Assembly: GCF_030845195.1 (NCBI RefSeq)
Contig: NZ_CP132543.1
Coordinates: forward strand, 389,501 to 453,500
Source: Sanyastnella coralliicola
GTDB taxonomy: Bacteria; Bacteroidota; Bacteroidia; Flavobacteriales_D; Sanyastnellaceae
DNA length: 64,000 nt
Reading direction: 5' to 3'
Shown: positions 24,255-60,900 of the stretch, in pieces
Layout: each line of letters begins with the position of its first letter
Numbering within the stretch: the first letter of the stretch is position 1
Notes under the pieces: model-generated
Databases searched by the model: none
The model's input: only the letters and a program-made list of their open reading frames with translations
What the model was told of the DNA's origin: nothing
Position numbers and translations under genes: made by a program

Positions 24255-25253
24255 ATGCGTCCCCTTCTTCACCTTTCACTCTTCCTTTTTCTCTTTATTT
24301 CGCTAGCGCGGAATGGCTATACCCAACATCCGGAGAACCTTGTTTTTGAAGGTGCTGGAATTCGCGGACTCGCCTACGGGGGAGTAATAGAGGCTTTAAA
24401 TGAACAAGGTCATCTAGATTCATTGCAACGCGTTGGAGGTACCTCAGCTGGAGCGGTAACCGCTTTGTTACTTTCCCTACGCTATGAGCCCGAAGAGATT
24501 ATTCGCATCATAGAATCTACACCCTGGGAAAGTTTCAATGATGCCCAAGTTCCTTTTTTAGCTTCGGGAGTTTATCGCATGAATAAGCACTACGGTTGGT
24601 ACCCAGGTGATCAGTTCCATGAGTGGATTGCCTCTGTCATTGCTTTGAAAACAGGAAGTACAGAAACCACCTTCGCTGAGGCCAGAAATGCCGGGTTCCT
24701 CGATCTCTATGTAACAGCCACTTCTGTGAACCGTCAAGAACTGGTGTACTTATCAGTCGAGACCTATCCAGAAATGCGTCTTTCGGATGCGATGCGCATT
24801 GCGATTTCAATTCCCTTCTATTTCGAAGCTGTACCGATTACTGCAGAGGGAGAAGTAGTAGAAGATCCATCCAGTAGTTCTGTTCAACATCTCTTAATTG
24901 ATGGAGGACTACTTGCGAACTACCCAATTCATATGTTCGATCGATCAGATGGGCAAAACTCAGGAATAACCATTGGCGTTCGCATGGATACCCCTGAACA
25001 AATTGATGCTGACCAGCAGCGTGAAGGTTTGGTAGACCTTGATATCAACTCATTGCAAAGCTATACTGAAGCCTTGTATGTCTTGACCCTAGAGACATTA
25101 AGTCGAAACAGCATGTCAGAAGACGATTGGAGTCGAACAATCAGTGTTTCGACTGAAGGGATTGGTCCGCGCATTCGAGAATTATCAATGGAAGAAAGAA
25201 GGTCGTTAATCGAAAGTGGAAAGAAGGCGGTTGACGATTTTCTGAACGACTAA
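24255..25253 (+). CDS. Patatin-like phospholipase with signal peptide
   Basis: Start at MRPLLHLSLF (24255), 332 residues, beginning with a signal peptide (ending near GYTQ). Patatin motifs are complete: the oxyanion loop GAGIRG (33-38), the nucleophile elbow GGTSAG (Ser64) and the catalytic Asp in IDGG. This Ser-Asp dyad hydrolyses acyl esters of phospholipids. An exported patatin would act in the periplasm or at the outer membrane. A dispersed TTCGCTAGCGCGGAAT repeat lies within the signal-peptide coding part. Promoter-like TACCTTCG at 24234-24241. Confidence 0.9.
   Translation: MRPLLHLSLFLFLFISLARNGYTQHPENLVFEGAGIRGLAYGGVIEALNEQGHLDSLQRVGGTSAGAVTALLLSLRYEPEEIIRIIESTPWESFNDAQVPFLASGVYRMNKHYGWYPGDQFHEWIASVIALKTGSTETTFAEARNAGFLDLYVTATSVNRQELVYLSVETYPEMRLSDAMRIAISIPFYFEAVPITAEGEVVEDPSSSSVQHLLIDGGLLANYPIHMFDRSDGQNSGITIGVRMDTPEQIDADQQREGLVDLDINSLQSYTEALYVLTLETLSRNSMSEDDWSRTISVSTEGIGPRIRELSMEERRSLIESGKKAVDDFLND
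24299..24314 (+). repeat. Dispersed 16-bp repeat TTCGCTAGCGCGGAAT, copy 1
   Basis: Exact copy within the patatin gene (codes S-L-A-R-N). Flanks TTA before and GG after are shared with copy 2 at 27366, so the identity between those two runs to 22 bp. Confidence 0.7.
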
Positions 25254-25263
25254 GCTCTTCGCC

Positions 25264-25271
25264 TATATTTG
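25264..25271 (+). promoter_or_regulatory. -7 element TATATTTG of fabD
   Basis: Exact TAnnTTTG match ending 16 bases before the ATG at 25288, directly after the stop of the patatin gene. Confidence 0.55.
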
Positions 25272-25287
25272 CCGAAATCTTCAGATT

Positions 25288-26181: not shown

Positions 26182-26208
26182 TCATTTCCCAGAACATAAG
26201 ACAAAAGA

Positions 26209-26232
26209 AAAGCCCCGCATCTGCGGGGCTTT
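26209..26232 (+). terminator. Rho-independent terminator of fabD
   Basis: Stem AAAGCCCCGC/GCGGGGCTTT with loop ATCT, 27 bases after the stop. T-tract is short (TTTAACC). Confidence 0.85.
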
Positions 26233-26337
26233 AACCTTTAACTATATACAATCTTTTCACGCTCCATCTCGTTCCCTAAATCTCCAACACGTGTGAAAGG
26301 ACGTTGAACTTTATTACTTCTAGCAAGCAAAAAAGTT

Positions 26338-26620: not shown

Positions 26621-27298
26621 TTATTCTACTTCTACTGAACGCGTAGATCCGCGGTAGCGTCCGTTGATCACTCCTCCAACGTCAGTTCCTTGTTGAATGT
26701 CAGGAGTGTAGCTGCGTTCGATGATGGCAGTAGTTGTACCAGCAGGGAGTTGCTGCAGTTGATCCATTCCAAGTAGAATGTTCGTTGCGCCGTCGCTGTT
26801 TTCTACGAATAGTTGAGCATCCCCTTCATTGATTCCATTCAGCCAAACGCTGACGATTTCGTCAGAGCCGAGAGCATCTCCGTCCCATTCAATTTCGAAA
26901 GATGCATTCTGATCAATTGGTCCGAATGTGCTTGGGAATTCGACAGAACGAATCTCCGCGTCATTCATGTAGGTGTTGCCATTCAAGTCATCGAATTCGA
27001 AAGTTCCCGAACTAACAAACCCGGCATAATCTTCTTCATAATAAGCCAATCCTTCACGGAATGGAATCGGATCACCATTGAAGCGTACCTCAGAAGGCTC
27101 GGTCAATTCGAGTTTGGTTCCGGCAGAATGTCCGAAGCGGAAAGTTGCTCGGGCATAGGTAATGTCTTCATCTGCATCATAGAACAATTCGTAACGAGCC
27201 CAGATGCGATCTTGATTTACATTTTCTGAGTCCTCGCGCATGCAGCTAGCTAAGCTCATGCCAAGGAAAGTGAGTAGTGTGAGTGTTTTCCAATTCAT
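26621..27298 (-). CDS. Lipoprotein, unknown function
   Basis: Start at MNWKTLTLLTF (27298; an ATG two codons upstream is equally possible). A lipoprotein signal with lipobox LASC is clear, so the mature protein starts at Cys18 and is membrane-anchored. The remaining 208 residues are acidic and beta-rich, and I recognise no family. It is divergent from the ECF sigma gene at 27503; a palindrome and a dispersed repeat copy lie between them. Confidence 0.8.
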   Translation of the reverse strand: MNWKTLTLLTFLGMSLASCMREDSENVNQDRIWARYELFYDADEDITYARATFRFGHSAGTKLELTEPSEVRFNGDPIPFREGLAYYEEDYAGFVSSGTFEFDDLNGNTYMNDAEIRSVEFPSTFGPIDQNASFEIEWDGDALGSDEIVSVWLNGINEGDAQLFVENSDGATNILLGMDQLQQLPAGTTTAIIERSYTPDIQQGTDVGGVINGRYRGSTRSVEVE

Positions 27299-27365
27299 GG
27301 TCATTGGGTTTTGTGACTTGCTCTCTATAAACAAGGGACATGCCAAAGTGCAATTTGCTGCTTAT

Positions 27366-27381
27366 TTCGCTAGCGCGGAAT
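27366..27381 (+). repeat. Dispersed 16-bp repeat, copy 2 (intergenic)
   Basis: Exact TTCGCTAGCGCGGAAT, the only copy outside a gene, in the 204-bp space between the lipoprotein and sigma genes. Confidence 0.7.
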
Positions 27382-27440
27382 GGGGCAATGATGTACTTAT
27401 TTACACGCCGGTGTTCCTTATTCGAACAAATGAATTTGAG

Positions 27441-27502: not shown

Positions 27503-28030
27503 ATGGCAACTCCGATCGAGCACATATGGCAACGGAAGATGGAAGGAGATTCTTCGGCAGACAATGAACTGTTCCGAGTATTATATCCGCCTTTGGTTAT
27601 TTCAGCCTATAGCATTCTGAAGCAGAAAGAAGATGCTCAAGACACCGCCTCAGAAACCATGATAAAGGTGGTAGCGCTCACTCCAGCCGATGGGGTGAAG
27701 AACGTGAGAACATGGGCCATCACTACGTGCAAGAATGCTGCATTAACGAAGATTCGTTTGGATAAACGAAGACGAGAGATCGTAGCAAAAGAGATGCCTG
27801 AGAAAACAGAACGTGCAGCCATTGCCGATGAAAAGGTAAGGCTAAGCCAGTTGGAGGAAACGATCAACGCAAGCTTGAATGCACTGGATCAAAAGATTTG
27901 GAACCTACATATGCAAGGCTTCGACAATGTCGAGATTGCCAAAGCCTGCGCAATGATTCCGAAAACCGTGGCGAACAGAAAGTCACTGATCCGTAAAACC
28001 TTGATGAAGAAGTTACATGACTGGAGATAA
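27503..28030 (+). CDS. ECF-type RNA polymerase sigma factor
   Basis: 175 residues with region 2 (LYPPLVISAYSILKQKEDAQDTASETMIKV, in part, residues 25-57) and a region 4 HTH (LHMQGFDNVEIAKACAMIPKTVANRKSLIRKTL, in part). It is more divergent than the other two sigma factors here. Its end overlaps the start of the anti-sigma gene by 14 bp, so the two are translationally coupled, the usual sign of a sigma/anti-sigma pair. Confidence 0.88.
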   Translation: MATPIEHIWQRKMEGDSSADNELFRVLYPPLVISAYSILKQKEDAQDTASETMIKVVALTPADGVKNVRTWAITTCKNAALTKIRLDKRRREIVAKEMPEKTERAAIADEKVRLSQLEETINASLNALDQKIWNLHMQGFDNVEIAKACAMIPKTVANRKSLIRKTLMKKLHDWR

Positions 28031-28757
28031 GAACACATACACCATCGAACTCTTGATCGACTACGCCTTAGGACTGACTACTGCGGAAGGTACGAAGAGA
28101 GTGAACGAGATTTTGGCCACAGATGAAGAGGCACAAGCTCATCTGCATACCATCAAAGAAATGCTCGCTTCAGGCATGGAGCCGGAGGAGTTAATTGAAA
28201 TGATTCAGCCTAAAGCCGAGGTCTCAAAAGAAGTGAAGAAGTCTTCACCTTCATGGATATGGGCTGCAGCAGGAATCGCGGTGTTCTTAGTAGCAGGTTA
28301 TCTACTCTTTGCCCTTCAACCGAACTTCGATGATATGATGGCTGAAGCGGTATCAGAAAAGTACCCGGCGGCTGTAGTGCGAGGTGAAGAGGATGCGAAG
28401 GCTCATGAAGCATACGCCCAAGGAAACTACGAGCTGGCAAGAACGCTCTTCCAAAGCTCAACGTCAGAGAATCCTGAAGATCGATTCTATTCTGCCCTCA
28501 GCGCGATGTACAATAGTCAATATGCTGAGGCCTTTAATGAGTTTGGTGATTTGGCCTACGAAGATCACGCTTACAAACGAGCATCGTACTGGTACGGATC
28601 AATCTGCGCCATTGAAATTGATTCTTGTGTTCATGCACAAAACTACCTGGCCTATCTGGCTAGAAATCAAGGGTACAAAAACGATGAGGCGAGGGCTTTA
28701 TACAAAGCGCTTTCGTATGAACCATGCACCCAGAAAGACGAGGGTGACAAGAACTAG
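28017..28757 (+). CDS. Membrane anti-sigma factor with periplasmic TPR-like domain
   Basis: 246 residues. N-terminal ~75 residues (ELLIDYALGLTTAEGTKRVNE...) look like a short cytoplasmic anti-sigma segment, one transmembrane helix spans ~80-100 (WIWAAAGIAVFLVAGYLLFAL), and the periplasmic part has TPR-like helix pairs (AHEAYAQGNYELARTLFQSS; AYKRASYWYGSICAIE). The gene overlaps the sigma gene by 14 bp upstream and the convergent TPR-CHAT gene by 60 bp at its end. The periplasmic TPR could bind a partner that triggers proteolysis and sigma release. Assigning the role rests on gene position and topology, as sequence similarity is low. Confidence 0.75.
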   Translation: MTGDKNTYTIELLIDYALGLTTAEGTKRVNEILATDEEAQAHLHTIKEMLASGMEPEELIEMIQPKAEVSKEVKKSSPSWIWAAAGIAVFLVAGYLLFALQPNFDDMMAEAVSEKYPAAVVRGEEDAKAHEAYAQGNYELARTLFQSSTSENPEDRFYSALSAMYNSQYAEAFNEFGDLAYEDHAYKRASYWYGSICAIEIDSCVHAQNYLAYLARNQGYKNDEARALYKALSYEPCTQKDEGDKN

Positions 28758-31409
28758 AATCGAAAGTACATACTCCATTCCTGTCTTCGGTTGAGCAAAT
28801 TGGATGTTACCTCCATACACCTGCCAATTGGCCCAGAAATAAGGGTGAGCTCGCAAGGGATCCTCTCCGTTTCGCATCAGATCTGATGCAGCGATTAGGG
28901 CATTCGAAGCAGTAGCACCTTCGGCAAGATGTTGATAGTAGGAAGCCATAAATTCCGCGCTAGCGAAATCATCAGCCTTCCAAAGACCGGCCAACACCGT
29001 CTGCGCACCACGACGCAAGAAAGGTGTACTCAAATCTTGAACACTTTCACCTGGAAGAATCTCCCCCAAGGCCGTTTCACATGCACTCAATGTGACATGC
29101 GGTGTGGTAAACGCCAACTCATATAATCCTTGCGGAGTAACGATCGTATCGTTCCCATCATTTCCAGTAAGCACCAAGCCTCGAGATAGACGCTCTGATT
29201 GGGTATGCATCGCCAAATGAAGCGCGCGATCAGAATAAGCCACTTTTTTGAGTGAGGCCATGGAACACAAGCTGTCTTGAAATGATTGCTCAATTAACCC
29301 TAGATCTTGAAGCAATTGCAGCTCTTTCTCAACACCAATAAGCGAGCTCAATTTCGAAGTATAGAATTGCTTGGTCATGGCTTCAACCTTCAACTCTTGA
29401 TCTGCTGTGGCTTCGAAATGATCAGCACTGTGAACGCGAATTATCTCGCTCAGTTCGCCTGCTGTGGCAAGCTGGCAAAGCGATAAATTGATCTGATGAA
29501 GCGGTCCGTCAGCATTGATGTAGACACGATCGTTCAAGTTATCGAGGCCCAGGAGACTCCCAAGTTTTGAATAATTCGTTTTCCACGCTTCGCGAAGTTG
29601 CGTTGAACCAATGGCATAGGCTCTATCGCTCACGGAAGTATACGCTGCCTTGACTTGAGACTCCAGATCATGGGCGTCAATCCGCTGCAGGCGAAGAGCG
29701 TTCGCGGTCACATCCATTTTCCACAAAACATCGTCGATCAGCAGGAAGCTGATATAGCGTTGTTGGTCACTCAGACTAGACTGCAACTTCGAAAGCGATT
29801 GTGATAAACTTCTTCGGTCTTCCGGGAGTGCTTGAATTCGCTGAATCAATTCAGCGCGCATTTCACCGGTGCGGTCACCTGAATTCTCAATCTGAGATCT
29901 GAGATAAAAGATCTTGGAAAGATCATCGCGGATCTGCTCATCTTCATCGCTGTAGCTAGCTAAAAACCATTGATGAGTGAACGATTTACATCCTTCGATC
30001 CACTCAAAGATCATGGGCTGATACTCTTCACTGATGTCGCCATTGAGCTCAACGTAAACATCATTAATCATGTAGTGGTAGGAGTCACGTACGTCTTCAT
30101 AGAATGTAGAACTCGCCTCTTCGAAGATCAGTGCACTTCTGCAATCGAGCAACAAATCAATCGCACGTTGATAATGGGGAACGCGATCTTCTAGCTTTGA
30201 TTCAAGCTGAGATGCCAACAGAAGTGTTTCTGAAAGATCGACCTCGGGCATGAGCTTCCCGTCAATTTCATAGCCAAGCAGTGTCTGTGTGATCAATTGT
30301 TCAGCTAATTCAGGGCCTCCTTTTAAGGCAAGTCTGATCTTTTCATTGGCTAGGGGAAGACGCGCAGGATGATTGGCATAGGCGCTGTCAAATGCAATGA
30401 AAGAGTCATCAATTGTCTTCAAGATCTCGAAGCCATTTTCTGAAGGTGGATCAAAGAGATAGGCAGACCACTGCGTCTCGAGCTGACGAACAGGATTCAC
30501 TTGAGACATGTCACCTTCCAGCACATCACGGAAAGTGATGGCCGCTTTCGCCGTATCTCCCAAATCCAAGTAAGCCTGACCACGGAGCAATTGAAGTTCG
30601 ATGTAGCGCAACTCGGGTTGACGACTCGTTTCTAGAATGGACTGACTACGATCGAACCATCGAGCAGAGCCTTCAGCGTCACCCATCTCGGCACAGATCG
30701 TTCCCAAGTTGTTGCATGGGTAGATCATGTCGGGAGTGTCGTTTTCAGATTTACTTGCCGCAATGGTGATGGAGCGCTCAAAGAATTCCCGCGATAGCGG
30801 AAGATCACCTTGTTCTAAATAAAGTACCCCGATGTTATTCAAGTTTCGTCCGTACCTACGACTATCCTCACCGTGGATTTTACCATTGAGTTCCAGTGCG
30901 GCTTTCAGATGATAGAGTGCTTCTGATGCATTCCCCAGGTTCCATTCAACAATACCCATGTTATTGTGGAATTTGGCTTGGTCAGAACCAACCGTATCGT
31001 TGACCAAATAAGGAGCGACCTTCCGCATCATGTTTCGAGCATCTACCGGACTGCCAGTGAACCAAAGGAACTCAGCGTAAGAGTCTATAAAGGTGCTTTT
31101 GTCATTCCATGGGGCTTCTGGGAAATCGGTGGCTAAGCGAGAAAATGTTTGAGCAAAGAGCGAATCTGCTCTTTCATTATCACCAACGCGAACGGCAATG
31201 GAACCAATCGCGCCTACATTGCGCAAGTACCTTTCTGGAGGCCAAGCCGACATCTGTGCTAAAAGAGAGTCAGCTGCTTGCGCCGCGGCTTCCATTTGTC
31301 CATCGTGCATCAAATCACGCAGGCGTTGTTCGTCTTTATCTGCCTGAGCAAACGACGAAAACCCTGAGAGTATCAGTGCGAAGAAGAAGAAAGTTAGCCT
31401 GTAAATCAC
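28698..31409 (-). CDS. Periplasmic TPR-CHAT protein with C-terminal membrane anchor
   Basis: 903 residues. Signal peptide (1-~22, SFAQ), TPR-like repeats over ~50-330 (NNMGIVEWNLGNASEALYHL, NNIGVLYLEQGDLPLSREFF), a long helical middle, and a C-terminal CHAT domain of the caspase-like fold. The predicted catalytic pair is His735 (LHLAMHTQ) and Cys777 (LSACETALG). A final helix (~878-898) followed by RKRFV anchors it in the inner membrane with the catalytic domain outside. CHAT proteins with TPR parts act as proteases in several signalling and defence systems. The overlapping convergent gene encodes the anti-sigma, so it could be its substrate. This is inference; the pair shares no operon. Confidence 0.88.
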   Translation of the reverse strand: MIYRLTFFFFALILSGFSSFAQADKDEQRLRDLMHDGQMEAAAQAADSLLAQMSAWPPERYLRNVGAIGSIAVRVGDNERADSLFAQTFSRLATDFPEAPWNDKSTFIDSYAEFLWFTGSPVDARNMMRKVAPYLVNDTVGSDQAKFHNNMGIVEWNLGNASEALYHLKAALELNGKIHGEDSRRYGRNLNNIGVLYLEQGDLPLSREFFERSITIAASKSENDTPDMIYPCNNLGTICAEMGDAEGSARWFDRSQSILETSRQPELRYIELQLLRGQAYLDLGDTAKAAITFRDVLEGDMSQVNPVRQLETQWSAYLFDPPSENGFEILKTIDDSFIAFDSAYANHPARLPLANEKIRLALKGGPELAEQLITQTLLGYEIDGKLMPEVDLSETLLLASQLESKLEDRVPHYQRAIDLLLDCRSALIFEEASSTFYEDVRDSYHYMINDVYVELNGDISEEYQPMIFEWIEGCKSFTHQWFLASYSDEDEQIRDDLSKIFYLRSQIENSGDRTGEMRAELIQRIQALPEDRRSLSQSLSKLQSSLSDQQRYISFLLIDDVLWKMDVTANALRLQRIDAHDLESQVKAAYTSVSDRAYAIGSTQLREAWKTNYSKLGSLLGLDNLNDRVYINADGPLHQINLSLCQLATAGELSEIIRVHSADHFEATADQELKVEAMTKQFYTSKLSSLIGVEKELQLLQDLGLIEQSFQDSLCSMASLKKVAYSDRALHLAMHTQSERLSRGLVLTGNDGNDTIVTPQGLYELAFTTPHVTLSACETALGEILPGESVQDLSTPFLRRGAQTVLAGLWKADDFASAEFMASYYQHLAEGATASNALIAASDLMRNGEDPLRAHPYFWANWQVYGGNIQFAQPKTGMEYVLSILVLVTLVFLGAWFIRKRFV
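28952..28967 (-). repeat. Dispersed 16-bp repeat, copy 3
   Basis: Exact copy in the CHAT gene, sense orientation, coding F-A-S-A-E. Confidence 0.7.
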
Positions 31410-34172: not shown

Positions 34173-35415
34173 CGAAGCTTTTAAGGAAGAGTACTGGGAT
34201 GATGCCCTCGCCGTACTGAAGCGCGAAGAGCGCAAGCAGTTCGTGCGCAAGGTATTGTCATGGTTACCTCCTGCTGCGGTCGTGGTAGCCGCAGTGGTGA
34301 TGTACTTCCTGCCGGCAGGACATGGCCCGGCGCAGCTTGCGGATAACACTTCTCGCGACCCGATTCAACATGAGTCGTCCCAAGAAGTGGTGTCAACGGA
34401 TACCGCTCCCCAAGAAACTTTCTACAATGTGAATGAAGTAGAAAATTCAACATCAGATTCTCACTCTCATTCTAATTCTCATTCTCATTCTTCCTCTCCA
34501 TCTTCCTCTTTCGCTAGCGCGGAATCGGACACTCCTCAACTAGAAGGAGTTGCTGACTTGGGAACAAGATCGATGAAGGAAGAATTAAAGGAAGAATTAG
34601 AATTGAAGGAAGAATTAGGGACAGAATTAGAATTTGAAACGGAAGTAGAATCTGAGGGGTATGGGGGATCAATGCTCGAACGTACTACCACAACTACCCC
34701 TACTATTAATGCACCAACCGGTTTGTCGCTCGCTTCCATTCGCGGGTACCGTCATGTTGATCCGTCGGGTGTACTTAAGTTCCGCACTTTTGAAGATAAG
34801 CACCGCAACTTCTTGCGTGAGTCAGTGAAACCTACTCAACTGATGGTGTACGTTGGAAATGCCTTTGCTGCTGGCTATGGAACGGTCAAAGGAGCTACCG
34901 TATTCAACCCGCAAGCAGGGATTGCACTCGAACAACGCATCGCCAACGGACTGTGGATTCGAGGAGGACTTGGAGGTCAGCAGTTGACAGAAGTACGTGT
35001 GAGTAAAGACTTCCGTGAGGTGACGCCTGGCTTTGGTTACGAGTACTCCTATACTGAGATCTCAACGGTGAAGCTCTACCTAGCGGAATTGCCAGTTTCT
35101 TTGATATGGGATGCGAACGTTCGCCACTCATTCTTCGGAGGAGCAGGACTCGAATATGTAACAGTCACGAAGAACGAGCTGACAACCACTGAGGTGAGCT
35201 TGTTTAGTGAAGAGGTAGTTGCAGAGTCTGAAGATTACGGCTACCTCACCGGATTCTCCCCACTCATGTGGAACTTACATGGAGGATACCGCTTCCGATT
35301 GACACGATCAGCATCACTAGACTTCACTTATAGCACCGGATTGAACTCGGTGGTTGAAGGAAGCGATGCTCGAAATAAGCGTTTCATTGTCAGACTAAAT
35401 TGGAGACTGAAATGA
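34153..35415 (+). CDS. Predicted dual-membrane anti-sigma with outer-membrane beta-barrel
   Basis: 420 residues. A short cytoplasmic segment (1-~33) is followed by one transmembrane helix (~36-54), a long disordered linker (~60-200) with Ser/His and Lys/Glu/Leu repeats, and a C-terminal ~205 residues that look like an outer-membrane beta-barrel (alternating strands, LNWRLK end). This is the layout of the dual membrane-spanning anti-sigma factors (Dma) described in Bacteroides thetaiotaomicron, in which an outer-membrane barrel controls a cognate sigma factor. The gene overlaps the sigma gene by 20 bp and the next lipoprotein gene by 4 bp (ATGA). No catalytic motif. A dispersed 16-bp repeat lies in the linker. 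Confidence 0.8.
   Translation: MEKHLHNEAFKEEYWDDALAVLKREERKQFVRKVLSWLPPAAVVVAAVVMYFLPAGHGPAQLADNTSRDPIQHESSQEVVSTDTAPQETFYNVNEVENSTSDSHSHSNSHSHSSSPSSSFASAESDTPQLEGVADLGTRSMKEELKEELELKEELGTELEFETEVESEGYGGSMLERTTTTTPTINAPTGLSLASIRGYRHVDPSGVLKFRTFEDKHRNFLRESVKPTQLMVYVGNAFAAGYGTVKGATVFNPQAGIALEQRIANGLWIRGGLGGQQLTEVRVSKDFREVTPGFGYEYSYTEISTVKLYLAELPVSLIWDANVRHSFFGGAGLEYVTVTKNELTTTEVSLFSEEVVAESEDYGYLTGFSPLMWNLHGGYRFRLTRSASLDFTYSTGLNSVVEGSDARNKRFIVRLNWRLK
34459..34510 (+). repeat. Simple-sequence repeat (TCTCAT-like) in the periplasmic linker
   Basis: Imperfect TCTCAT hexamers code for Ser-His-Ser-His. A second simple repeat (GAAGAATTA units, about 34576-34635) codes for KEEL-type residues. Hexamer and nonamer steps keep frame, so copy-number change would alter linker length only. 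Confidence 0.65.
34510..34525 (+). repeat. Dispersed 16-bp repeat, copy 4
   Basis: Exact copy in the linker part of the dual-membrane anti-sigma gene, coding F-A-S-A-E, same frame as copy 3. Confidence 0.7.
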
Positions 35416-36599: not shown

Positions 36600-38732
36600 T
36601 CAGAACTCCGTCACGCGGAATTCAGTCCTTCGGTTGATCTCGTGGTCTTCATCGGAACAGTCGTTCCCGTTTCCACAGTTGTTGATCAACACGGTCTCTC
36701 CATAACCTCTTGACGTGAGGCGGTTTTTGGCGATACCGTTTTGAATAAGGTATTCAACAGCGGCTTTCGCACGCTTTTGACTTAGTTTCAGGTTGTATGA
36801 GTCACTACCACGAGCATCAGTATGTGACCCGAGTTCGATCTTCATTGTTGGATTGTCGTTCAACAAGGCGATGATCTTGTCTAGCTCGGTTGCTGCGTCT
36901 TGGCGGATGCGGTAATCGTTGTAATCGTAGTTGATGTTTTCGATACGCACCGTCATATTGACCTCAATCTTTTCGAAGTTGAGATCGATGCCAGTTAAAG
37001 CAGTAAGGTCGTTCACACCAGTAGTAATGTTGTTGGTGTTGAAGAAAACTGATTTCGTGAAATAGCCTTCTTTCGACAGCGTGAGCTCATAGCTGCTTGA
37101 TGGGTCCAAATCGAAGTTCAAGTTTCCGTCATTAGTGGTGGTTACTACCGTCACTTCATCTGTTCCCAGCTTGGTCAGCACTCCTCTAACTTCTTCTAGT
37201 CCTTCATTCGTGGCTTTGTCACGAATAACGGTCGCACCAACATATCCTAATGAGGTTAGTTCAATGGTACCTGCATCTAAAGTGTAAATCTCTTGATTAC
37301 ACGCTGATACCGCTTTTTCGGCGCTAGCCAAGGCAGGACCTGCATTGAAAGTTAATTCGGCATCTGTTGCAGCTGGAACATCGGTGACCAAGTCAAAGAT
37401 TCCATTGCTATTCGTCACCGCTGTCCCAATGACTTCACCAGTAGCGTTCAGCACATTGACAGTACAGTTCATCACTGCTGTTCCTGCATCGTCAACTACA
37501 ACACCAGTGTAGTTCCATTCACGATCTTTCAAGACTTTGACCTTGTAGAGATCGTCGTTGGTTGCTTCGTTTTCACGGTTGGATGCGAAGTAGGCAACAC
37601 GTTGGTCCTCTCGCAATGTGAAAGAGAAATCATCTGCTGTTGAATTCACCGGAGCTCCAAGGTTCAGTGCTGTTCCGCATGAACCGTTGGTGAATGGTGC
37701 TTCAAATACATCCAAGCCTCCAAGGTTGGCGTGACCATCTGACGAGAAGTACAAGAATTCATCTACACCGAAGTGCGGGAACATCTCATTCATTGGCGTA
37801 TTCACAGTTGGTCCGGCGTTCACTGGAGTGCCCCAGTTTCCATCGTCCATCTTCTGGCAAATCCAGATATCTGTTCCTCCAAGTCCGCCTTCCATATCTG
37901 ATGTAAAGGCGATGAATTCGCCATCACGCGTGATGGTAGGATGACCAGTTGAGTAATCTGCACTGTTATGCGTGAACCCTGTTGGAGTTCTCCATTCTCC
38001 AGCCACCATTTCAGCTACGAGGATTTCTAGCTTACGCGTTTGATCCCCTTCGGCGTTAGCCTGATTACGAGTGAAGTAGAAAGTTTCACCATCATTGATA
38101 AAACAACCTGGCCCTTCGTGCAACGCTGTATTGACTGTAGCGGGTAGGGGAGTGAACTCTGGCGTTCCTTCAACTGATTCCGTCAACATATAAAGGTCTA
38201 GGAAAGGACGTCCATTCCACTTGAAACGACGCTTTACAGCCACGTCATTTTCACGGTCAGAAACAAAAACCAAATCTCCATCTAAGAAGCAAGGTCCGAA
38301 TTCAGAACCTTCGGTATTGAATTCTTCCTTCTGGACGTTGAAACGTCCGTTGTCTGTCTTGATCATTTCGATCAGCTCTGCCGAGTAGGATTCATTCGAG
38401 CAACCTTGACTCAGGATTTCAGCCTGATCAGCGTTGCCTGTACTACGAAGTGCATGCGCAAATCGGCATACTTCGTCTGAATCTAGGTTACCGGCCTTGC
38501 CATACCATTCGGCAGCGGCCTGCATGTCGCGAAGAGCAAAGTAACTCTCTGCTAACCCGAGGGCAACACGACTACTATCAACTCCTCGATTGAGTAGATT
38601 GGTGTAACGATCAATTGCTTCGGCATAAGCCAAATCATTTCTAGAACGATCAGCTTTACGAAGTGCTCCTTCTTGAGCCACCATGGTGGTCGTGAGAAAG
38701 AGACTGAATATGATTAGAATGTTCTTTTTCAT
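36600..38732 (-). CDS. PorE-like OmpA-family protein (TPR, PD40 propeller, regulatory domain, OmpA)
   Basis: 710 residues with a signal peptide (MVAQ). Domain order: TPR region (20-125), PD40/WD40-like propeller (~130-395; TGHPTITRDGEFIAFTSD is a typical blade), carboxypeptidase-regulatory-like folds (~405-600), and an OmpA peptidoglycan-binding domain (~610-708; NYDYNDYRIRQDA, LGSHTDARGSDSYN, RGYGE). This matches PorE of the T9SS of Porphyromonas gingivalis and the OmpA genes that follow sprF-type genes. It lies 11 bp after the PorP/SprF gene, in the adhesin operon, and probably ties surface secretion to peptidoglycan. Confidence 0.92.
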   Translation of the reverse strand: MKKNILIIFSLFLTTTMVAQEGALRKADRSRNDLAYAEAIDRYTNLLNRGVDSSRVALGLAESYFALRDMQAAAEWYGKAGNLDSDEVCRFAHALRSTGNADQAEILSQGCSNESYSAELIEMIKTDNGRFNVQKEEFNTEGSEFGPCFLDGDLVFVSDRENDVAVKRRFKWNGRPFLDLYMLTESVEGTPEFTPLPATVNTALHEGPGCFINDGETFYFTRNQANAEGDQTRKLEILVAEMVAGEWRTPTGFTHNSADYSTGHPTITRDGEFIAFTSDMEGGLGGTDIWICQKMDDGNWGTPVNAGPTVNTPMNEMFPHFGVDEFLYFSSDGHANLGGLDVFEAPFTNGSCGTALNLGAPVNSTADDFSFTLREDQRVAYFASNRENEATNDDLYKVKVLKDREWNYTGVVVDDAGTAVMNCTVNVLNATGEVIGTAVTNSNGIFDLVTDVPAATDAELTFNAGPALASAEKAVSACNQEIYTLDAGTIELTSLGYVGATVIRDKATNEGLEEVRGVLTKLGTDEVTVVTTTNDGNLNFDLDPSSSYELTLSKEGYFTKSVFFNTNNITTGVNDLTALTGIDLNFEKIEVNMTVRIENINYDYNDYRIRQDAATELDKIIALLNDNPTMKIELGSHTDARGSDSYNLKLSQKRAKAAVEYLIQNGIAKNRLTSRGYGETVLINNCGNGNDCSDEDHEINRRTEFRVTEF

Positions 38733-39708: not shown

Positions 39709-42700
39709 TTACTGACGATTGATGTAGACATAACCCTGCATTGGGGCTGTGACACCGTCATTTGGTTCGAGGATATAGTAGTACGTTCCTGTTGGGAGTG
39801 TTCCGGCACCAGAGGTGTTTCCGTTACCATCCCAATCATTAGCGTAAGGGAGTGCCTTGTACACTTCGTTACCCCAGCGATTGATAATCGTTACCGATGC
39901 TCTAGGGTACAACTGTTCAAGTCCTTCGATAACCCATGTGTCACCTACACCGTCTCCGTTTGGAGAGAATCCTTGAGGGATAACTAGGTCAGTGAAACAA
40001 TCATCTGGGTCAAGCGAGTCAACGATTCCGTCACCATCACAGTCGTTCTGATCAGATTCGTCTTCGTCAAGTACTCCATCGTTGTCAGCATCTTCGTCAA
40101 CGTAGTCTGGGTTCCCGTCGCCATCAGTATCGATTGGGTCTTCAGGGTTACCTACTTCTTCTTCGTCGAGAACACCGTCATTATCTGAATCATCATCAGT
40201 GTAATCAGGCATGCCGTCATCGTCAGTGTCTACATCACCTTCGATTTCATCATCAATTCCGTCGTTATCTGAATCTTCGTCTTGATAATCTGGAACCCCG
40301 TCACCGTCAGTGTCTACGTCACCTTCAGTGTCGTCATTAATTCCATCGTTGTCAGAGTCTTCATCTTGGTAATCAGGAACTCCATCGCCGTCGGTATCAA
40401 CAGGGTCGTTGCCGTCACCGGCTTCTTCCTCATCATCGATTCCGTCTCCGTCTGAGTCGGTGTCTTGGAAGTCGGGTTCACCGTCACCATCGGTATCGAT
40501 TGGATCTGTTGCGTCTTCACCAGCTTCATCTTCATCACTGATACCGTCGTTGTCTGAATCTTCGTCTAGGTAGTCAGGAATGTCATCACCATCTGTATCG
40601 GTGATGTCTCCGTCGTCTCCGTTTTCGACGTAATCAGGGATTTCGTCGTTGTCAGAATCGCTATCCTGGTAGTCTGGCGTTCCGTCGCCATCAGTATCTA
40701 CCGGATTGTTTCCGTTTCCAGCTTCTGTTTCATCATTGATGCCGTCATTATCTGAATCGGCATCAAGAATGTCAGGAATGCCGTCGTTATCAGTATCGAC
40801 AACAACTACGGTACAAAGGTCTAGAGTTGTAGGGTTAGCCTCAATTTCATCCGGAATTCCATCTCCATCTGAATCTGTGTCGAGGTAGTTCATTACTCCG
40901 TCACCATCGGTATCTTCAGTAACTCCTTCGAGGTAATCAGGAACAGAGTCACCATCTGAGTCTGCTGGCGTCACCGTGATGGTCACCGTTACGTTTTCGC
41001 AGAGTTCAGGAGATCCATCGTCACAAACCACGTAAGTGATTTCATCCTCACCACAGAATCCTAGTTCAGGGATGTAAGTGATGGTTCCATCAGGGTTCAT
41101 GACTACTTCTCCATTTCCTTCATCGAGAATGGCTGTCACCGTGAGGTTGTCGCCATCAATATCGTAGTCGTTGTTCAAGACATCAATATCCAGTGGGATT
41201 TGATCTGTCGTTGATCCGCCATCAACCACACCAACAGGGGCGTCGTTAACTGGGAGTACATCGATTTGAACCAAGGCTGAAGCACATGCTCCGTAGTCAT
41301 CACACCAAGTGATTTCAAGAAGGTCTTCACCGTGGTAATTGAGTTCTGGTTCATAACGGAAACAAGCGTCTGTTGTTGAAACACCATCAGATATCACACC
41401 ATGTGTTGCTGATGAGTTTTCCACTTGGAATACGTTTCCGTCTCCATCAATATCTTCAAGAGTGATACAAATGTCGATCGTACCGTCTTCATTCATCACA
41501 AGAGACTGTCCGTCAAATACCCCGTCAACTGGAGTATATCCGTTCACTGTAGCGATGACAGGTGCGTCATTCACCGGTAAGACGTTGAGCATTACCGATG
41601 CTTGAGAACACAAGCCTTCGTTGTCACAGATCTCATAAGTGAAGGTGTCATTACCGAACCAGTTTTCATCGTTTGGTGTGTATGTGAATTCCCCAAGGAT
41701 GCTGATGGAAATGGTACCATGTGCTGTTTCCGTAGAATAGTCGTCACTTACTAGCAGCAGGATTCCTTCAGGGTCGAAGTCATTCTCTGTCAACTGCGCT
41801 GTGATCGATTCACCTTCATATAGCGTGAAGATGTCGTCGATGGCTACCGGAGCCTGGTTTTGTCCTAAGTCAGGGGCAACAACCTCGATCGATACGATAC
41901 CGATACCACAGTTGTTTCCGTTCACTGTTTCACAGATCATGTATGTGAATTCATCCACTCCTTCGAAGCCAGCTTCTGGCTCGTAGATGAAATCTCCCGC
42001 TGCGTTTAGGGATACTTCACCGTGTTCTGGTGCTAGAATTGGCACTGCTGCTACGGTTAGCATATCGCCTTCAGGGTCGAAGTCGTTCAACGACACCGAT
42101 CCTTGGAGTGTGCCATTGACAGACATGACAAAGATGTCGTTATTGGCAATTGGGTTCGAGTTTTCGTTTGGATTCGTGTTAATCACCTCGATCGTCACTG
42201 TTCCTTCGTCACATGCTTGTGGATCAAAGTCGTCACAGATCTTGTAGGTAAATGAATCTGAACCACTGTATCCTTCGAAAGGAGTGTAGACGTAGTTTCC
42301 GTCCTCATCCATTGTTACGGTTCCAAAGTTCGGTTCGTCTACCAATTCTGCTTCTATAGAGAAACTGTGGCCATCAGGGTCAGTATCGTTAAAGAGTACA
42401 TTCCCTTCCGCGCTAGCGTTATTGAGAACGTTATTAACGTCGTTAATCGCTTGAATACCGTCGTTCACCTCTGTCACTTCAATAACTAGGCCAGCCGATT
42501 CGCAAAGTCCTTGTGCGTCACAGATCTGGTAAGAGATGAGCGCGAACCCATACCAATTCGAAGCTGGTTGGAAAGTGATCGAGCCATCATTGTTGACGTT
42601 CGCAACACCCTCGCCTTGTACTGCGAGAATAGATACAGAACTAAGGTCTAGGTCTCCATTCGGGTCAGTATCGTTGTCAGCGACAGCTACTTGAACTGGG

Positions 42701-54639: not shown

Positions 54640-57600
54640 TTACTTCTCCTTAACGAAGACTACGGTTTTCGTCAATGCCTGAGTCCCATTCTTAAGATGA
54701 AGAATGTATTGACCCGCCGCATAGCCATCTGTTGGGATACGAAGCATCGTACCATTACTCTGACCACTTGTTAGTAGTTGACCTGTGGTGCTATAAAGCT
54801 CGTAGGTAATGTTTTCGCTAGCGCGGAATTGGACCTGGAGATCTTGACCGATCACAGTTGGAATTGGGAATACGCTGCTTTCAGCAAGCGAAGATTCGTC
54901 AATGCCAATCACCGTGAAGTCAACGTCAAACGCATCTTCTACAGTCAACAGTACAAGAGGGTTACCCACCAAGTCAGTTGGACCGAGCACATTGATGTCA
55001 ACTGTGGTTGTCACAGGATCAAACAGTTCCACATCAAAGGTGGCTAGGAAGTTGAATGGATTCTGCCATGATTCGTCTACAGATGAAACTGTCTGGTTGA
55101 TCTGACCACCTTCTAAGGTGTAGGTGAGGTCAGTTTCAGTGTCAATCGCTTCGTCAAACACGAAGAGAAGATCGAAGGTAGCTTCTCCCACAGCAGTTTC
55201 AGTCAACGGATTCAATGATGGCAAGATTAGACTCAATTCAGGAGCCTTGGTGTCAATCAAAATTTCAGTCTCATCGCTCGTGGCTTCAATGGGGTTTCCG
55301 GCAAGGTCTGTTGCCGTCTCAATTGACCAGGCAACACCATCTGCTTCTAGATCAGTATCCACTGTTTCAAAGCTAGCTCTCCAAACTGTAGGGGTGAGCC
55401 ATTCTCCTTCCGCGTTAGCGAAAACAGCAGCGACTTGAGCATCATCAAAAGTCACGTTCAATAGTGACTCGGCATCCATCAATTCCGAAAACTCGAAATC
55501 GAATTCAATCTCGTTTCCTGCAAATTCCTCGTTGATTAAGGTTTGATCACTTGAGCTAGCCACGAGTGTTGGAACAATCATGTCGATGATCAACACGTCC
55601 TCTTCCGTGTGAGGAATTGATAATTCTCCCTCAGCATTAGGGGCTTCGGTGATGGTAATGTCGATGCTACCCAAGTCAACTGCTAGCACTGAAATATCAT
55701 AGGTTCCACTGTAAGTCATGTTGTCAAGCCAGATGCCAGAAGATGGTGTCAGAACGGATGATACGTTCTCATCACTGAACTCAATGGAAGGCACACTCAG
55801 CTGATCCATTTCTTGATCGAACATGATATCAATCGTCATCTGCATCCCATCCATCAAGGTGTTCACCACGCTCGTTGAAGGCGTCACCGCCGCCACGCGT
55901 GGAAGTCCCGCCTCGATGTATTCATTCGCGTGAATGAAGCTGTGAAGTCCGATCTCAATACCCATCAAACGACCTGGTACGTCATCAGCAGGAGGGTGGA
56001 TTCCACCCCAAATACGGCTCAAACTACACTGGTCAGAAGCATCGCGGTAAGTAGCCCATTGAAGCGTTACGTCTTCAGAAGGACCTTCTTCAAAAACCAA
56101 GAATTCGTTTTGCTCACAGTGGAACTCTCCCATTCCTCCTGGGAAGAAAGCATCACCCGTCATGAACGTCATGACTTCAGCGGCAGCTCGTGAGTAAGTA
56201 GAGTGTCCACTCACGTACCCAGCAAACGGTGGGGTTACGAAGGTTGGACGTTGATAAGGCCACCAGTTCTCAGCAAGGATCCATCCAACGCCTGCGTAAT
56301 CTGTTTCTGGTTCAGGAATGAAATCTGGTCCTCGCCAAGTGTAGAATTTGATTTTGCCCACATTGATTCCGCCAAGTCCGGCTAGTGGATCATTTTCACC
56401 AACCAGCTCAATCAATCCATCAATCAAAGGTATCCCCGCTGGATCGAAAGAAGGAAGATCTGGATCGGTATTCTGTCCACGATCAGCCATGAAGCGGAGG
56501 GCTGCTACCGGACGAATGTAGTCGTACCAGCCTTTGATACTCCACGCAGTAACGGCAGCGTCATGCATGGCACCTCCTAGCGTGAAGTAGGTTTTGACAT
56601 CCCACTCCAGGTCATCTAGTTCTGGTCCTTCACCGCGCCATCTTTTTTCGAGCATCGGGTGAGAATTCACATAGTTCAGAATAGTGAACCAGTGCCCTGG
56701 AGGTGTTTCTGAGTCAGGTCCATCAGCCCAGAACTCTGCAAGGATTCGTGAGTAGTCTGAGCGTTTTATAAACTGCGGAATGTATGGCTCACCTGTGGCA
56801 GGGTTAATGTCGTGTCCTTCTCCTGCGTCTCCGCCGTCGAAGAAGTCGTAGAAAGTATTGTATTGATCAAACGAAGTTGGTAGGCTCTCCACGTTTCCAA
56901 TGCTTGCAGGTGAAATGTCCCAGAGTGTTTCGTCGTTTGGATCGTGGTGTGATTGCCATACGGTTACCATGCTGAAACCCCAGCGGTAGAACTCGTCTCC
57001 TTCACGTGTTCCGAGGGTGTCAATGAATGGTGGTGGGCCTGGATCATGATATACGTTGTAGTTGAATCCATCTCTTTCGTACTGCGTCATTACAGAATCG
57101 TCAAGAGCGAAGGGTACAACATTCCCCCATTCAGGACTCAAGAAAGGAGGGGTATCTGTGAATGGGTTTCCTCCTTGGTCGATAAACTCTGGTACTTCCA
57201 ACGGCTGCCAACGATTCGGGTCGTCAATGTTGGGGTTTCCAGGACCTGTCATGTCTAGTGGTTCATTGACAGGGAGGTAGTATGAATTGGCGTAATCTGA
57301 TCCTTCGTTTGATCCGTCTTGTAGACCAAAAGCGATCATCATTTCGGCTAGGTAATTCCCCAGCGCAGCTGGTGGCCCCATTTCATAATCAGTATCAGTG
57401 AATTCAGTGTCGTAGCCGAGATCCATCATGGTTTCATCCAAGCTTTCAAGGATGTCGTCTGCTCCCGGAGAGAATTGGAAACGATGTGTCAGCAGGCGAT
57501 AGGTGGCGTATGAAATCGCTTCTTCTCTCGCTGCGTAAAGATCTTCAGGCATTTCTACCCCTGCAAAGGGAACTTCAAATCCTCCCAATGTATTCCCTAG

Positions 57601-57819
57601 GAAGTAGGTTGATGCTTGATCATCATACACCGCCCAAGCGTCATACATCAATACAGATGAATGGAATAGGTTACGCGCATGAACCGTTGGACGAGCAAAG
57701 TCAGCTCGAATGGCACCGAGTAAAACTTCATTCCAAGTATGCGCAATGCTTTCTTGCGCCGAAGTGAACATCGGTTGTGCAAAGAGGAGCACAAAAAGGA
57801 GGAGTAAGGTTCTTTTCAT
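54640..57819 (-). CDS. Secreted vanadium-haloperoxidase-family protein with Ig-like repeats and T9SS domain (1)
   Basis: Start at MKRTLLLLFVL (57819), 1059 residues, signal peptide ending TSAQ. Catalytic-site motifs of the vanadium haloperoxidase/acid phosphatase superfamily are complete: K-x6-RP (KGWYDYIRP, ~430), SGH (YVSGHST, ~537; Val replaces Pro of PSGH) and SR-x5-H-x3-D (SRIWGGIHPPADD, ~606). Three Ig-like domains of ~100 residues follow and the end is a T9SS type A domain (FPIPTVIG, YAAGQYILHL, KTVVFVKEK). It could oxidise halides or be a phosphatase; the protein would work outside the cell. Its neighbour is a paralogue. Two dispersed-repeat copies lie inside. Confidence 0.87.
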   Translation of the reverse strand: MKRTLLLLFVLLFAQPMFTSAQESIAHTWNEVLLGAIRADFARPTVHARNLFHSSVLMYDAWAVYDDQASTYFLGNTLGGFEVPFAGVEMPEDLYAAREEAISYATYRLLTHRFQFSPGADDILESLDETMMDLGYDTEFTDTDYEMGPPAALGNYLAEMMIAFGLQDGSNEGSDYANSYYLPVNEPLDMTGPGNPNIDDPNRWQPLEVPEFIDQGGNPFTDTPPFLSPEWGNVVPFALDDSVMTQYERDGFNYNVYHDPGPPPFIDTLGTREGDEFYRWGFSMVTVWQSHHDPNDETLWDISPASIGNVESLPTSFDQYNTFYDFFDGGDAGEGHDINPATGEPYIPQFIKRSDYSRILAEFWADGPDSETPPGHWFTILNYVNSHPMLEKRWRGEGPELDDLEWDVKTYFTLGGAMHDAAVTAWSIKGWYDYIRPVAALRFMADRGQNTDPDLPSFDPAGIPLIDGLIELVGENDPLAGLGGINVGKIKFYTWRGPDFIPEPETDYAGVGWILAENWWPYQRPTFVTPPFAGYVSGHSTYSRAAAEVMTFMTGDAFFPGGMGEFHCEQNEFLVFEEGPSEDVTLQWATYRDASDQCSLSRIWGGIHPPADDVPGRLMGIEIGLHSFIHANEYIEAGLPRVAAVTPSTSVVNTLMDGMQMTIDIMFDQEMDQLSVPSIEFSDENVSSVLTPSSGIWLDNMTYSGTYDISVLAVDLGSIDITITEAPNAEGELSIPHTEEDVLIIDMIVPTLVASSSDQTLINEEFAGNEIEFDFEFSELMDAESLLNVTFDDAQVAAVFANAEGEWLTPTVWRASFETVDTDLEADGVAWSIETATDLAGNPIEATSDETEILIDTKAPELSLILPSLNPLTETAVGEATFDLLFVFDEAIDTETDLTYTLEGGQINQTVSSVDESWQNPFNFLATFDVELFDPVTTTVDINVLGPTDLVGNPLVLLTVEDAFDVDFTVIGIDESSLAESSVFPIPTVIGQDLQVQFRASENITYELYSTTGQLLTSGQSNGTMLRIPTDGYAAGQYILHLKNGTQALTKTVVFVKEK
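54814..54829 (+). repeat. Dispersed 16-bp repeat, copy 6 (antisense)
   Basis: Exact copy in haloperoxidase-family gene 1, opposite to the gene, reading F-R-A-S-E-N in protein. Confidence 0.7.
55408..55422 (-). repeat. Dispersed repeat, copy 7 (one mismatch)
   Basis: TTCGCTAACGCGGAA, sense orientation in haloperoxidase-family gene 1, coding F-A-N-A-E, same frame as copies 3 and 4. Confidence 0.6.
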
Positions 57820-57835
57820 GATTGCAGGGTTTGTC

Positions 57836-57843
57836 CAAAAATA
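57836..57843 (-). promoter_or_regulatory. -7 element TATTTTTG of haloperoxidase-family gene 1
   Basis: Exact TAnnTTTG on the minus strand, 16 bases before the ATG at 57819. The 96-bp gap to the upstream paralogue therefore may carry a separate promoter. Confidence 0.45.
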
Positions 57844-57915
57844 CAAAGGGTTTCTTCTGGTGTCAGTAAAACCGAACATTCAAAAGAAACCCTAAGTTCA
57901 ACAAGTATGTAAATC

Positions 57916-60900
57916 CTAGCGTAGGATGTTAAATCTCAGTATGCTCACACCTTCCGCTGTTTGAATTGCGATGGTGTAATTACCAGCTGCCATCTCATTC
58001 GTCTGAACAGCAATCTGTTGTTGTACTGATCCAGCGAGCATTGGAATCTGGCGAACCAGCTCTCCATTCGCTCCGTGGATATCAAGTGACTCCACCACGT
58101 CTGGGTTATCCATACGGATTGTTAGCACATCTCCACTTGTTACTGGGTTCGGGTAAATCGATACACCGAAGTTTTCGTTTTCGTTCACCCCAACTGGGTT
58201 GATGTCGATGTCGAAGAAGTCATCGTAATCAGTTTGAACCAATAGATTGCCGGCAGCATCAATAGCTCCAGTGACAACGATGTCGATATCAAGAAGAAGT
58301 ACTGTTTCGTTGCTCACGTTGTACACTTGCTGGTAGCTCGTGCTGTTCAACCATCCTGATGCATCGTCATTCGCCGTAAGCGTAGTTGACGGGTCTTCAT
58401 CTGGGAACAAGATGAACGGATCAACATCTGTATCCATCGCTTCATCAAAGATGATCAAGAGTGAGAAGTTCTCATCACCAGCATCAGCGAAGATTAATTC
58501 GTAGTCGTTAGCGCTCAATACAATCGGCTCTGGGTTGCGTGTGTCAATAGCGAGAACATCGTCCATTGACATCATCATCTGCTCGTTTCCGTTTGCATCT
58601 AATGTTCCGCTTATAGTGATTCCGACGTTGTCGATTTCAACGCCTTCATCAGAAAGGTCATAAAGGGCTGTGTACGTCATGTCGTCAACCCAAGATCCAC
58701 TAGCGAAGGTTACTGATGCGCTAATGTCTTCAGAGAATTCAATCATTGGCATTGACATCATATCCATCGCTTCGCTGAACTCCAATGTCAAATCAACGCT
58801 TTCAGCACCAACATTGATGTCTGCTAGCAGGTTGTCATTGATGTCAGCATTCTGAAGTGAAGGGTTCTCAGTATCAATGGCGAATGGTGTCATCACCATC
58901 TCCACCACGACTTCGTTTCCTGCCATATCAGTAGCAGTCGCCGCTTCGAGGTTGATCATTGATAAGTCTTCATTTGCATCGATTACAGTGAATTCAAAGT
59001 GGTAAGTCATGTCGTCCATCCACATTGAGTTCATTTCATCCAGTGTCAATGAGTTTGCCAATGGATCATCGTTAGGGAATACCAATTCGGCGTTAGCCAT
59101 CATAGACATCACTTCGTCGAAAGCCACATCAATAGCGAATGTTCCTCCTGCAGCTACAGCATCGTTGATCACGGTAGCGTCAGGTGTCACCATCATCACA
59201 GATGGGTTGTGTGTATCAATGGAGAAGAGATCGACATCAAGGTAGATGTTCTGAATATTACCAGCGGCGTCAAACGCATCTAGCAATTCGATATCTACAT
59301 CTGCTACTTCCTCGTTGTTATCTGTCAAGTCGAATACCACTTGGTAGCTCACATTGTCAAGCCAAGCGCTCGCATCAGCATTCACAGCCAATGTGTTGCT
59401 TGGATCTTCCATTGGGAAGTTCACAGTTGGCTCAACTGAAGTGTCCATTGACTCATCGTAGGTCACAGTGATCGCGATCGTAGACTCGGCTACTTCACTA
59501 TCGCTGATCAATGAGAAGTCATCTGTAAAATCAACTGATGGGTTGCGTGTGTCAATTGCGAAAGCAAAGTCTTCAACGTGTGGAGCCTGAGAGAATCCAT
59601 CAGTATCAACTGCACCAACTACCTGCATGAAGATTGAAAACAACTCAACATCTGCATCCGTAATTAAGTACTGCAAAGAGTAGGTAGTTGCATTGGCCCA
59701 TTCCGCGCTAGCGAGAGAGAGCGAAGACATGGTAGGATCATCAAACGGCCAAGAGATCTCCGGCGTAGACATCATGTCCATGTTGGTGTCATAAGTGATA
59801 TTGATCTGCAGGGTAGAACCAGCATCCCCCTCATTTACTACATCAATTGATGCTTGAACGTTCTCAACGCGTGGCGCGTTCGAAGTGAAGTAAGTTACCG
59901 CAAGGTCATACACTTCAGGTCCGAGTTCTAGACCGATCAAACGACCAGGAATATCATCAGCCGGTGGGTGAATACCTCCCCAAATCCTACTCAAAGAAGT
60001 TTGGTCACTTGCATCTTGATATGTTGCCCATTGAAGAATGATATCTGTACTTGGACCTTCTTCAAAAACAAGGAATTCATTCTGTTCTGCTACGAAGTCG
60101 CTCATACCTCCTGGAAAGTATGGAGACCCGGTTATAAGGGTTAGTACCTCCGCAGCTGCTCTGGAGAATACAGAGTGTCCACTGACATAACCTGCAAAAG
60201 GCGGGGATACAAATGTTGGTCGTTGATAAGGCCACCAGTCCTTCGCCAAAATCCACCCCACTCCTGCTTCGTCGAGTCCAACTCCATCATCATCAAACGT
60301 AATATAGTCTGGACCTCTCCAGGTATAGATTTTTATTTCATTGAGGTTTTCGTTGTTGTCACCTACGAGCGGGTCGTTCTCCTCCACGAGCTCCACATAG
60401 CCCTCAATTAGCGGCCATCCATCTGGGTGATAATTTGGTAAACCAACATCTGAGCATTGACCTTTTTCTGCCATATATCTTATCGCTGAGACAGGTCTCA
60501 AATAGTCATAATATCCCTTAATACTCCAAGCACAAATAGCCGCATCGTGCATTGTGGATCCTAAAGTGAAATATGATTTAACATCCCATTCGAGATCGTC
60601 AATAATTGGCCCTTGGCCGTTCCATCGCTTATCTAGAAGTGGATGAGCATTTACTTTGTTAAGAATAGTAAACCAGTGACCAGGCGGTGTTTCTGAGTCA
60701 GGGCCATCGGCCCAGAATTCAGCCAAAACACGCGCGTAATCCGCTCTTTTTACGAGCTGGGGAGTATATGGTTCATTCGTCGCAGGATTCACTGAGTAAC
60801 CTTGACTCTGATCACCGCCTTCGAAGAAGTCATAAAAAAGGTTGTAATCATCAAAGTCATCAGGGATAGAAGGATTGTTTCCGAGGGATGCAGGGGAAAT

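Follow-up and report, generated by a model that had tools for sequence, protein, structure and literature searches.

HIP1 (highly iterated palindrome 1) of cyanobacteria is a fixed octamer palindrome and a very abundant short word in genes, and Chi and KOPS (FtsK-orienting polar sequences) are asymmetric, over-represented, genic words biased along the direction of replication. The DNA uptake sequences (DUS) of Neisseriaceae and the uptake signal sequences (USS) of Pasteurellaceae are linear words present in hundreds of copies on both strands, many of them in genes with one orientation favoured in reading frames, and they arise by substitution rather than insertion. They occur as species dialects, as described for Neisseriaceae (excerpt of PMC3630211), and show an orientation bias inside genes (excerpt of PMC2346458). 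Repetitive extragenic palindromic (REP) elements, which carry GTAG or CGTC tags and go with TnpA-REP/RAYT proteins, are tagged stem-loops with compensated stems, mostly intergenic and often paired or clustered; intragenic ones are described as insertions (excerpt of PMC3733652). Here we analysed a 64-kb stretch (the window; bases 389501-453500) of the genome of Sanyastnella coralliicola (G000; one contig of 4,097,636 bp), through which the 13-letter word CGCTAGCGCGGAA is scattered. The word is a hairpin, CGC-[TANC]-GCG-GAA. It represents one species' form of a tag with hundreds of copies in some genomes of marine flavobacteria; the tag looks like a self-recognition mark, perhaps for DNA uptake.

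A genome-wide count, proposed in a first-pass annotation of the window, showed that the feature extends far beyond it. The exact word occurs 430 times in G000 (220 forward, 210 reverse), including 65 copies in the first 464 kb sampled, while the reversed pattern, our control for word counts, gave 0. One-mismatch variants fall into 39 classes, of which just the three at core position 6 occur commonly (20 copies with T, 15 with A, 3 with C). The other 36 together have 2 copies in G000, and 9 in the 296 kb examined of the sister species G001. Because core position 6 is the only freely varying position, we rewrote the word as CGCTANCGCGGAA. This pattern has 770 copies in G000 (401 on the plus strand, 369 on the minus strand; reversed control 0) and 667 in G001 (371 + 296), a density of about 170-190 tags per Mb. 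It is present in 0 to 4 copies in each of the other 394 genomes of an even phylum-wide draw of 395 that includes G000. A second congener, G002, has no copy of the exact word and one copy of the other variants.

The two arms of the word vary together. The pattern C..TA.C..GGAA has 184 matches in 685 kb of G000, and the stem is paired in 164 of them. Besides CGC/GCG, the paired stems that precede GAA include GGC/GCC (17), CAC/GTG (9), CTC/GAG (4), CCC/GGG (2) and single others. When CGC/GCG stems were set aside, 45 of 486 matches to NNN-TANC-NNN-GAA were paired, compared with a mean of 8.6 and a maximum of 21 in 5000 shuffles of the 3' arms. In the part of G000 aligned with G001, a paired tag is present in one or both species, and a stem different from CGC/GCG in one or both, at 29 places. 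At 14 of these the tag is paired in both species, in one case through a compensatory change (CTC/GAG against TTC/GAA). The first-pass annotation had recognised the motif as a repeated word but had missed that it is a hairpin with a covarying stem.

Congeners have similar copy numbers in different dialects, and the dialects follow lineages (G000/G001, G002, and G016 from another genus of the same family). In G002, a k-mer scan surfaced CGCAAAAGCG, whose copies are hairpins of the form C-N5-loop-N5'-G-GATG with AAAA, GAAA or AGAA as the loop. Among 36 C-N5-loop-N5-GGATG sites chosen blind to pairing, 33 pair at all five free positions (shuffled 3' arms: mean 2.2, maximum 8), as do 24 of 27 when only distinct copies are counted (shuffle mean 1.2). 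The partial pattern CNNCGCNNNNGCGNNGGA has 645 matches in this genome (318 + 327; control 13), and the next highest count among 349 members of the order searched is 44 (control 25). The G016 dialect is TTT-CNNCC-[TNNC/TNNNC]-GGN'N'G-GATG. With C-N4-loop-N4-GGATG as the pattern, 12 of 13 sites with a TNNC loop and 13 of 15 with a TNNNC loop are paired (shuffle means 1.6 and 3.5). The pattern TTTCNNCCTN{2,3}CGGNNGGA has 381 matches in G016 (control 0); across 199 genomes it was found 18 times in G002, 4 times each in G000 and G001, and at most twice in the rest.

The tag is orientation-specific and has three parts: a short stem with perfect pairing, a loop of 4-5 nt that is characteristic, and a 3' GA(T/A) that stays unpaired. 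The base just before the stem is least often C in all three dialects (5/148 in G000, 1/42 in G002, 0/25 in G016), as if the 3' GA had to remain unpaired. DNA folding energies differ little between the two strands. Taking the structural part by itself, we are nearly certain that this is a dispersed, covarying hairpin tag. Separately, paired TTT-hairpins with an identical TCAAC loop occur once each at G000:C1:2336064, G001:C49:3308, G007:C60:76179 and G026:C166:7628, that is, in two genera, the second of which (G007, G026) has no detected tag system.

A clear tag was not found in samples of 20-60 kb each from G003, G007, G008, G010, G011, G012, G017, G038, G039 and G045. The G011 and G012 samples gave weak signals, and those of G007 and G045 held clustered repeats. 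Another genus, sampled in G011 (L169-L171), has more copies of ATTTGGCC and words overlapping it than expected (19 dispersed copies in 60 kb against 3.7), which may represent a different dispersed word. Spread by phage was considered and set aside: viral contigs matching the three dialect words number 3, 0 and 0, with one copy each. We recognised no description of these hairpins in the literature searched, which was largely judged without full text and left most subscription literature out of reach.

The window has 14 matches to the 13-mer with at most 2 mismatches; 100 shuffled versions that preserve dinucleotides averaged 0.79 matches and never exceeded 4. The tags and their compensated-stem relatives are listed here with the open reading frames (ORFs) that hold or flank them.

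19315..19327, plus strand: hairpin tag CGC-TATC-GCG-GAA, antisense in a DEAD-box helicase ORF (19190-20656, minus)
24301..24313, plus strand: hairpin tag CGC-TAGC-GCG-GAA, sense frame 1, in the N-terminal part of a patatin-like protein ORF (24186-25253, plus)
27368..27380, plus strand: hairpin tag CGC-TAGC-GCG-GAA, intergenic between ORFs 26621-27346 (minus) and 27503-28030 (plus; extracytoplasmic function (ECF) sigma factor)
28953..28965, minus strand: hairpin tag CGC-TAGC-GCG-GAA, sense (FASAE) in a TPR/CHAT protein ORF (28698-31409, minus)
34512..34524, plus strand: hairpin tag CGC-TAGC-GCG-GAA, sense (FASAE) in ORF 34153-35415 (plus; no Pfam hit)
37317..37329, minus strand: compensated stem GGC-TAGC-GCC-GAA, sense in an OmpA-family protein ORF (36600-38732, minus); unchanged in the sister species
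38049..38061, minus strand: compensated stem GGC-TAAC-GCC-GAA, in the same OmpA-family protein ORF (36600-38732, minus); unpaired in the sister species
42406..42418, minus strand: CGC-TAGC-GCG-GAA, sense (NASAE) in the gene for a type IX secreted protein of 2005 aa with Ig/cadherin domains; in the sister species, core position 6 is A
54816..54828, plus strand: hairpin tag CGC-TAGC-GCG-GAA, antisense in ORF 54640-57879 (minus); identical in the sister species
55408..55420, minus strand: hairpin tag CGC-TAAC-GCG-GAA, sense (FANAE) in ORF 54640-57879 (minus); identical in the sister species
59086..59098, minus strand: compensated stem GGC-TAAC-GCC-GAA, sense in ORF 57916-61971 (minus)
59701..59713, minus strand: hairpin tag CGC-TAGC-GCG-GAA, sense (LASAE) in ORF 57916-61971 (minus)

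The first-pass annotation had reported seven exact copies, mostly by the start of a 16-mer, and all were recovered (24301, 27368, 28953, 34512, 42406, 54816 and 59701), as were its one-mismatch copies, in which core position 6 is A (55408) or T (19315). It was also right that seven of the eight good copies (the seven exact ones and 55408) lie inside ORFs, the intergenic one being 27368, and that five copies (28953, 34512, 42406, 55408 and 59701) read in the sense direction, as [F/N/L]-A-[S/N]-A-E. Its statement that all copies are in or next to genes for exported or regulatory proteins does not extend to the weak copy at 19315 in the helicase gene. The compensated-stem relatives at 37317, 38049 and 59086 had been overlooked. 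Proteins that end in type IX secretion tails are consistent with the assignment to Bacteroidota.

Genic location, frame and replication strand were scored for the 148 sites in 685 kb of G000 (coding fraction 0.90). ORFs hold 137 sites and 11 are intergenic, where 10% of the sequence is non-coding; the genic share is proportional to coding density. The 137 genic sites are split over two sense frames (77 and 14; 91 in total) and two antisense frames (28 and 18; 46 in total). The preferred frame noted in the window is real, and it is the one that codon usage accommodates best. Since the sense share of 0.664 equals the codon-usage expectation of 0.685 (p 0.58), the preference is mainly a matter of codon compatibility; in G002 the ratio of sense to antisense is 17:5, with an expected sense share of 0.76. 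Single frames fit the codon model loosely, antisense frame 2 and sense frame 1 being above prediction and antisense frame 0 below it.

These counts bear on two explanations that place the signal outside DNA. One is that the word is a protein-level or codon-usage coincidence, a by-product of an ASAE peptide, and the codon compatibility of the preferred frame fits it. The numbers refute it: codon usage predicts about 0.11 genic copies in the 685 kb, whereas 137 were seen and in four frames, most orthologues have other, unrelated residues at the tag position, and the reversed controls are 0. The other explanation is that the tags act as RNA hairpins in messages, as the target of an RNA-binding protein or nuclease. 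The loop and 3' tail are strand-specific, sense sites outnumber antisense ones, and folding as RNA somewhat favours the strand shown in 2 of 3 dialect examples. We nevertheless consider an RNA role very improbable, given the 46 antisense and 11 intergenic sites and a sense share that codon usage accounts for, in G002 as in G000.

The GC skew of sampled stretches places the replication origin of G000 at about 3.7 Mb and its terminus at about 1.7 Mb; by these positions, 80 sites are on the leading strand and 68 on the lagging strand (p 0.37). This check, suggested along with the idea of a segregation or replication-polarity signal, lends that idea no support. The tags share asymmetry, over-representation and genic location with Chi and KOPS but differ in having no replication bias and in being hairpins. 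With HIP1 they share the great abundance of a short word in genes. However, all four bases occur at core position 6, the palindrome CGCTAGCG is broken in the 340 of 770 copies that do not have G there, and the stem covaries; a HIP1-like fixed octamer palindrome is not supported. Terminator-like inverted pairs were likewise rejected: 8 pairs of neighbours lie less than 300 bp apart among the 148 sites, four of them in opposite orientation.

Comparison of 407 kb between G000 and G001 (identity 0.916 where aligned) showed that the sites are conserved. Of 78 aligned sites, 68 are unchanged when core position 6 is disregarded, compared with 39.1% of 59,896 random 13-base windows (p 2e-18). The other 10 sites have 1-3 substitutions and no gap. 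Tag density is 0.223/kb in shared DNA (78 sites, 349 kb) and 0.086/kb in non-shared DNA (5 sites, 58 kb; p 0.028). Among more distant orthologues (identity at least 40%, single best alignment per site), the tagged genome is free of an insertion in 42 of 48 comparisons (G000 19/21, G002 18/19, G016 5/8), with the caveats that some alignments may be of paralogues and that three G000 sites are in repeated modules of one locus (L028). Gaps in either sequence occur at 9 of the 48, compared with 10-12% at random windows of those alignments, and a few indels near sites are possible. A wider set at any identity, superseded by this one, had 86 gap-free alignments out of 123 for G000 and 53 out of 80 for G002. 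Because most comparisons show no insertion, the sites mostly overwrite existing sequence; the G016 sample is small and less clear. An inserted mobile or gene-conversion element, one of the options first raised for the word, is not supported by these alignments or by the 10 lost sites, all of which are in-place substitutions.

The mode of origin also matters for a possible kinship with REPs. On this explanation the tags would be REP-like palindromes, hairpins of single-stranded DNA with a guide tetranucleotide, bound or cleaved by a Y1/HUH transposase-like TnpA-REP/RAYT protein; the guide would be GATG at the 3' end of the strand shown, which is CATC at the 5' foot of the other strand. The architecture is close, since REPs are also short stem-loops with a tetranucleotide tag and compensated stems (excerpt of PMC3733652), CGTC families include loops of 4-5 nt, and TnpA-REP recognises folded single strands through the tetranucleotide, the stem and, in some groups, the loop (excerpt of PMC8266576). 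PF01797 matches were found in 4/4 tag bearers (G000, where the match is weak, G001, G002 and G016) and in 12/26 other genomes (16/30 in total; Fisher p 0.10). However, the tags are genic, single and written in place, with 3-6 bp stems and tails of GATG (G002, G016) or GAA (G000, G001) in place of GTAG or CGTC, so that membership among REPs fails on location, tag and mode of origin. The RAYT profile found 3 matches in G000, 3 in G001 and 6 in G002, but 0 in G016 and 3 in G003, where no tag was seen, and the RAYT-like or Y1 genes of the tag-bearing window, G001 and G002 are, as a set, not flanked by tags. We consider the REP-like explanation unlikely. As a separate observation, Y1/IS200-like transposase genes in G000, G001 and G016 adjoin ORFs of short tandem repeats (L193:4244-4795, L194:6047-6316, L196:2032-2733 and 3371-3709), and dispersed tandem arrays are frequent in G002 too.

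A chromosome-maintenance site without polarity, at which a nucleoid, topology, recombination or single-strand-gap protein needs an exposed hairpin, would fit tags that are genome-wide, conserved, free of strand bias and spaced almost at random (coefficient of variation 0.96). Such a site would be expected to change slowly, whereas congeners here differ in loop and tail, and most sampled genera have no detected tag. We regard a maintenance role as quite unlikely.

The pairing constraint, the mostly in-place origin, the conservation, the dialects and a both-strand distribution, as expected of a DNA-level signal, leave an uptake or marking signal, already among the options of the first-pass annotation, as the best functional reading, with the function itself putative. 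We propose that the word is the dialect, in one lineage, of a DNA hairpin that is dispersed and orientation-specific and serves as a self tag, and we put the probability of this proposal, whole uptake mechanism included, at roughly 0.4. A putative cell factor would recognise the hairpin in single-stranded DNA. The tag would mark the cell's own DNA, most likely favouring kin DNA in natural uptake and recombination, and biased uptake would write tags into the genome by substitution and then keep them, as is held for DUS and USS. It would thus be a functional analogue of these sequences in Bacteroidota, reading a hairpin rather than a linear duplex word.

On genome evidence the tags behave like DUS: they are strongly over-represented on both strands, largely genic, arise mostly by substitution and differ between lineages as dialects. 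They are not a fixed linear word, since stems covary while loop and tail are kept; with the uptake role putative as well, DUS membership cannot be claimed. A little short of even odds, they may instead form a new class of genome-wide self mark, written by substitution as hairpins of single-stranded DNA with a dialect-specific loop and 3' tail and read by a putative hairpin-binding protein, and so be neither linear uptake sequences nor mobile REPs. Self-preference in transformation is known in the phylum: R. columbina prefers its own DNA, with candidate signal words that are A/T-rich (excerpt of PMC7965970), and transformation genes of R. anatipestifer are found mainly in Flavobacteriaceae (excerpt of PMC8459023). 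The gene comEC, present in G000 and in 12/12 relatives tested, also speaks for an uptake role.

Several observations weigh against a self tag for uptake. The known DUS and USS are linear words, and the literature surveyed offers no precedent for incoming DNA being read as a hairpin. The gene comEC does not track the trait because it is also in relatives without a detected tag; its presence in every relative tested makes it uninformative as a partner. No receptor candidate emerged: the pilus/secretion ATPase family gives strong matches in G000 and G001 and none in G002 (G016 was outside this search), and full-length matches over the cut-off occur in G000, G001, G008 and G041. Among the partner families examined (comEC, pilus/secretion ATPase, Y1 transposase and the RAYT profile), none tracks the tag. 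G016 shows a gap at the site in 3 of its 8 orthologue comparisons. Finally, one-mismatch copies outside core position 6 are nearly missing from G000, a more abrupt limit than might be expected of drive with decay.

If the self-tag proposal is true, DNA self marking arose at least once more and is able to use DNA secondary structure; the genome-wide uptake signals published in the literature surveyed are linear words of Neisseriaceae and Pasteurellaceae. The tag is a concrete candidate for discrimination between own and foreign DNA in some Bacteroidota, and tag oligonucleotides are directly usable as bait for a reader protein.

Two neighbouring features were recorded along the way. At G000:C1:2200538-2201656, within L022, there is a full-length T2SSE/pilus-type ATPase gene, which G001 also has and G002 does not; the surrounding 20 kb are tag-free in G000. 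In the window, positions 31507-33537 encode an exported Asp/Cys-rich protein with numerous near-identical Cys modules and a type IX-like tail.

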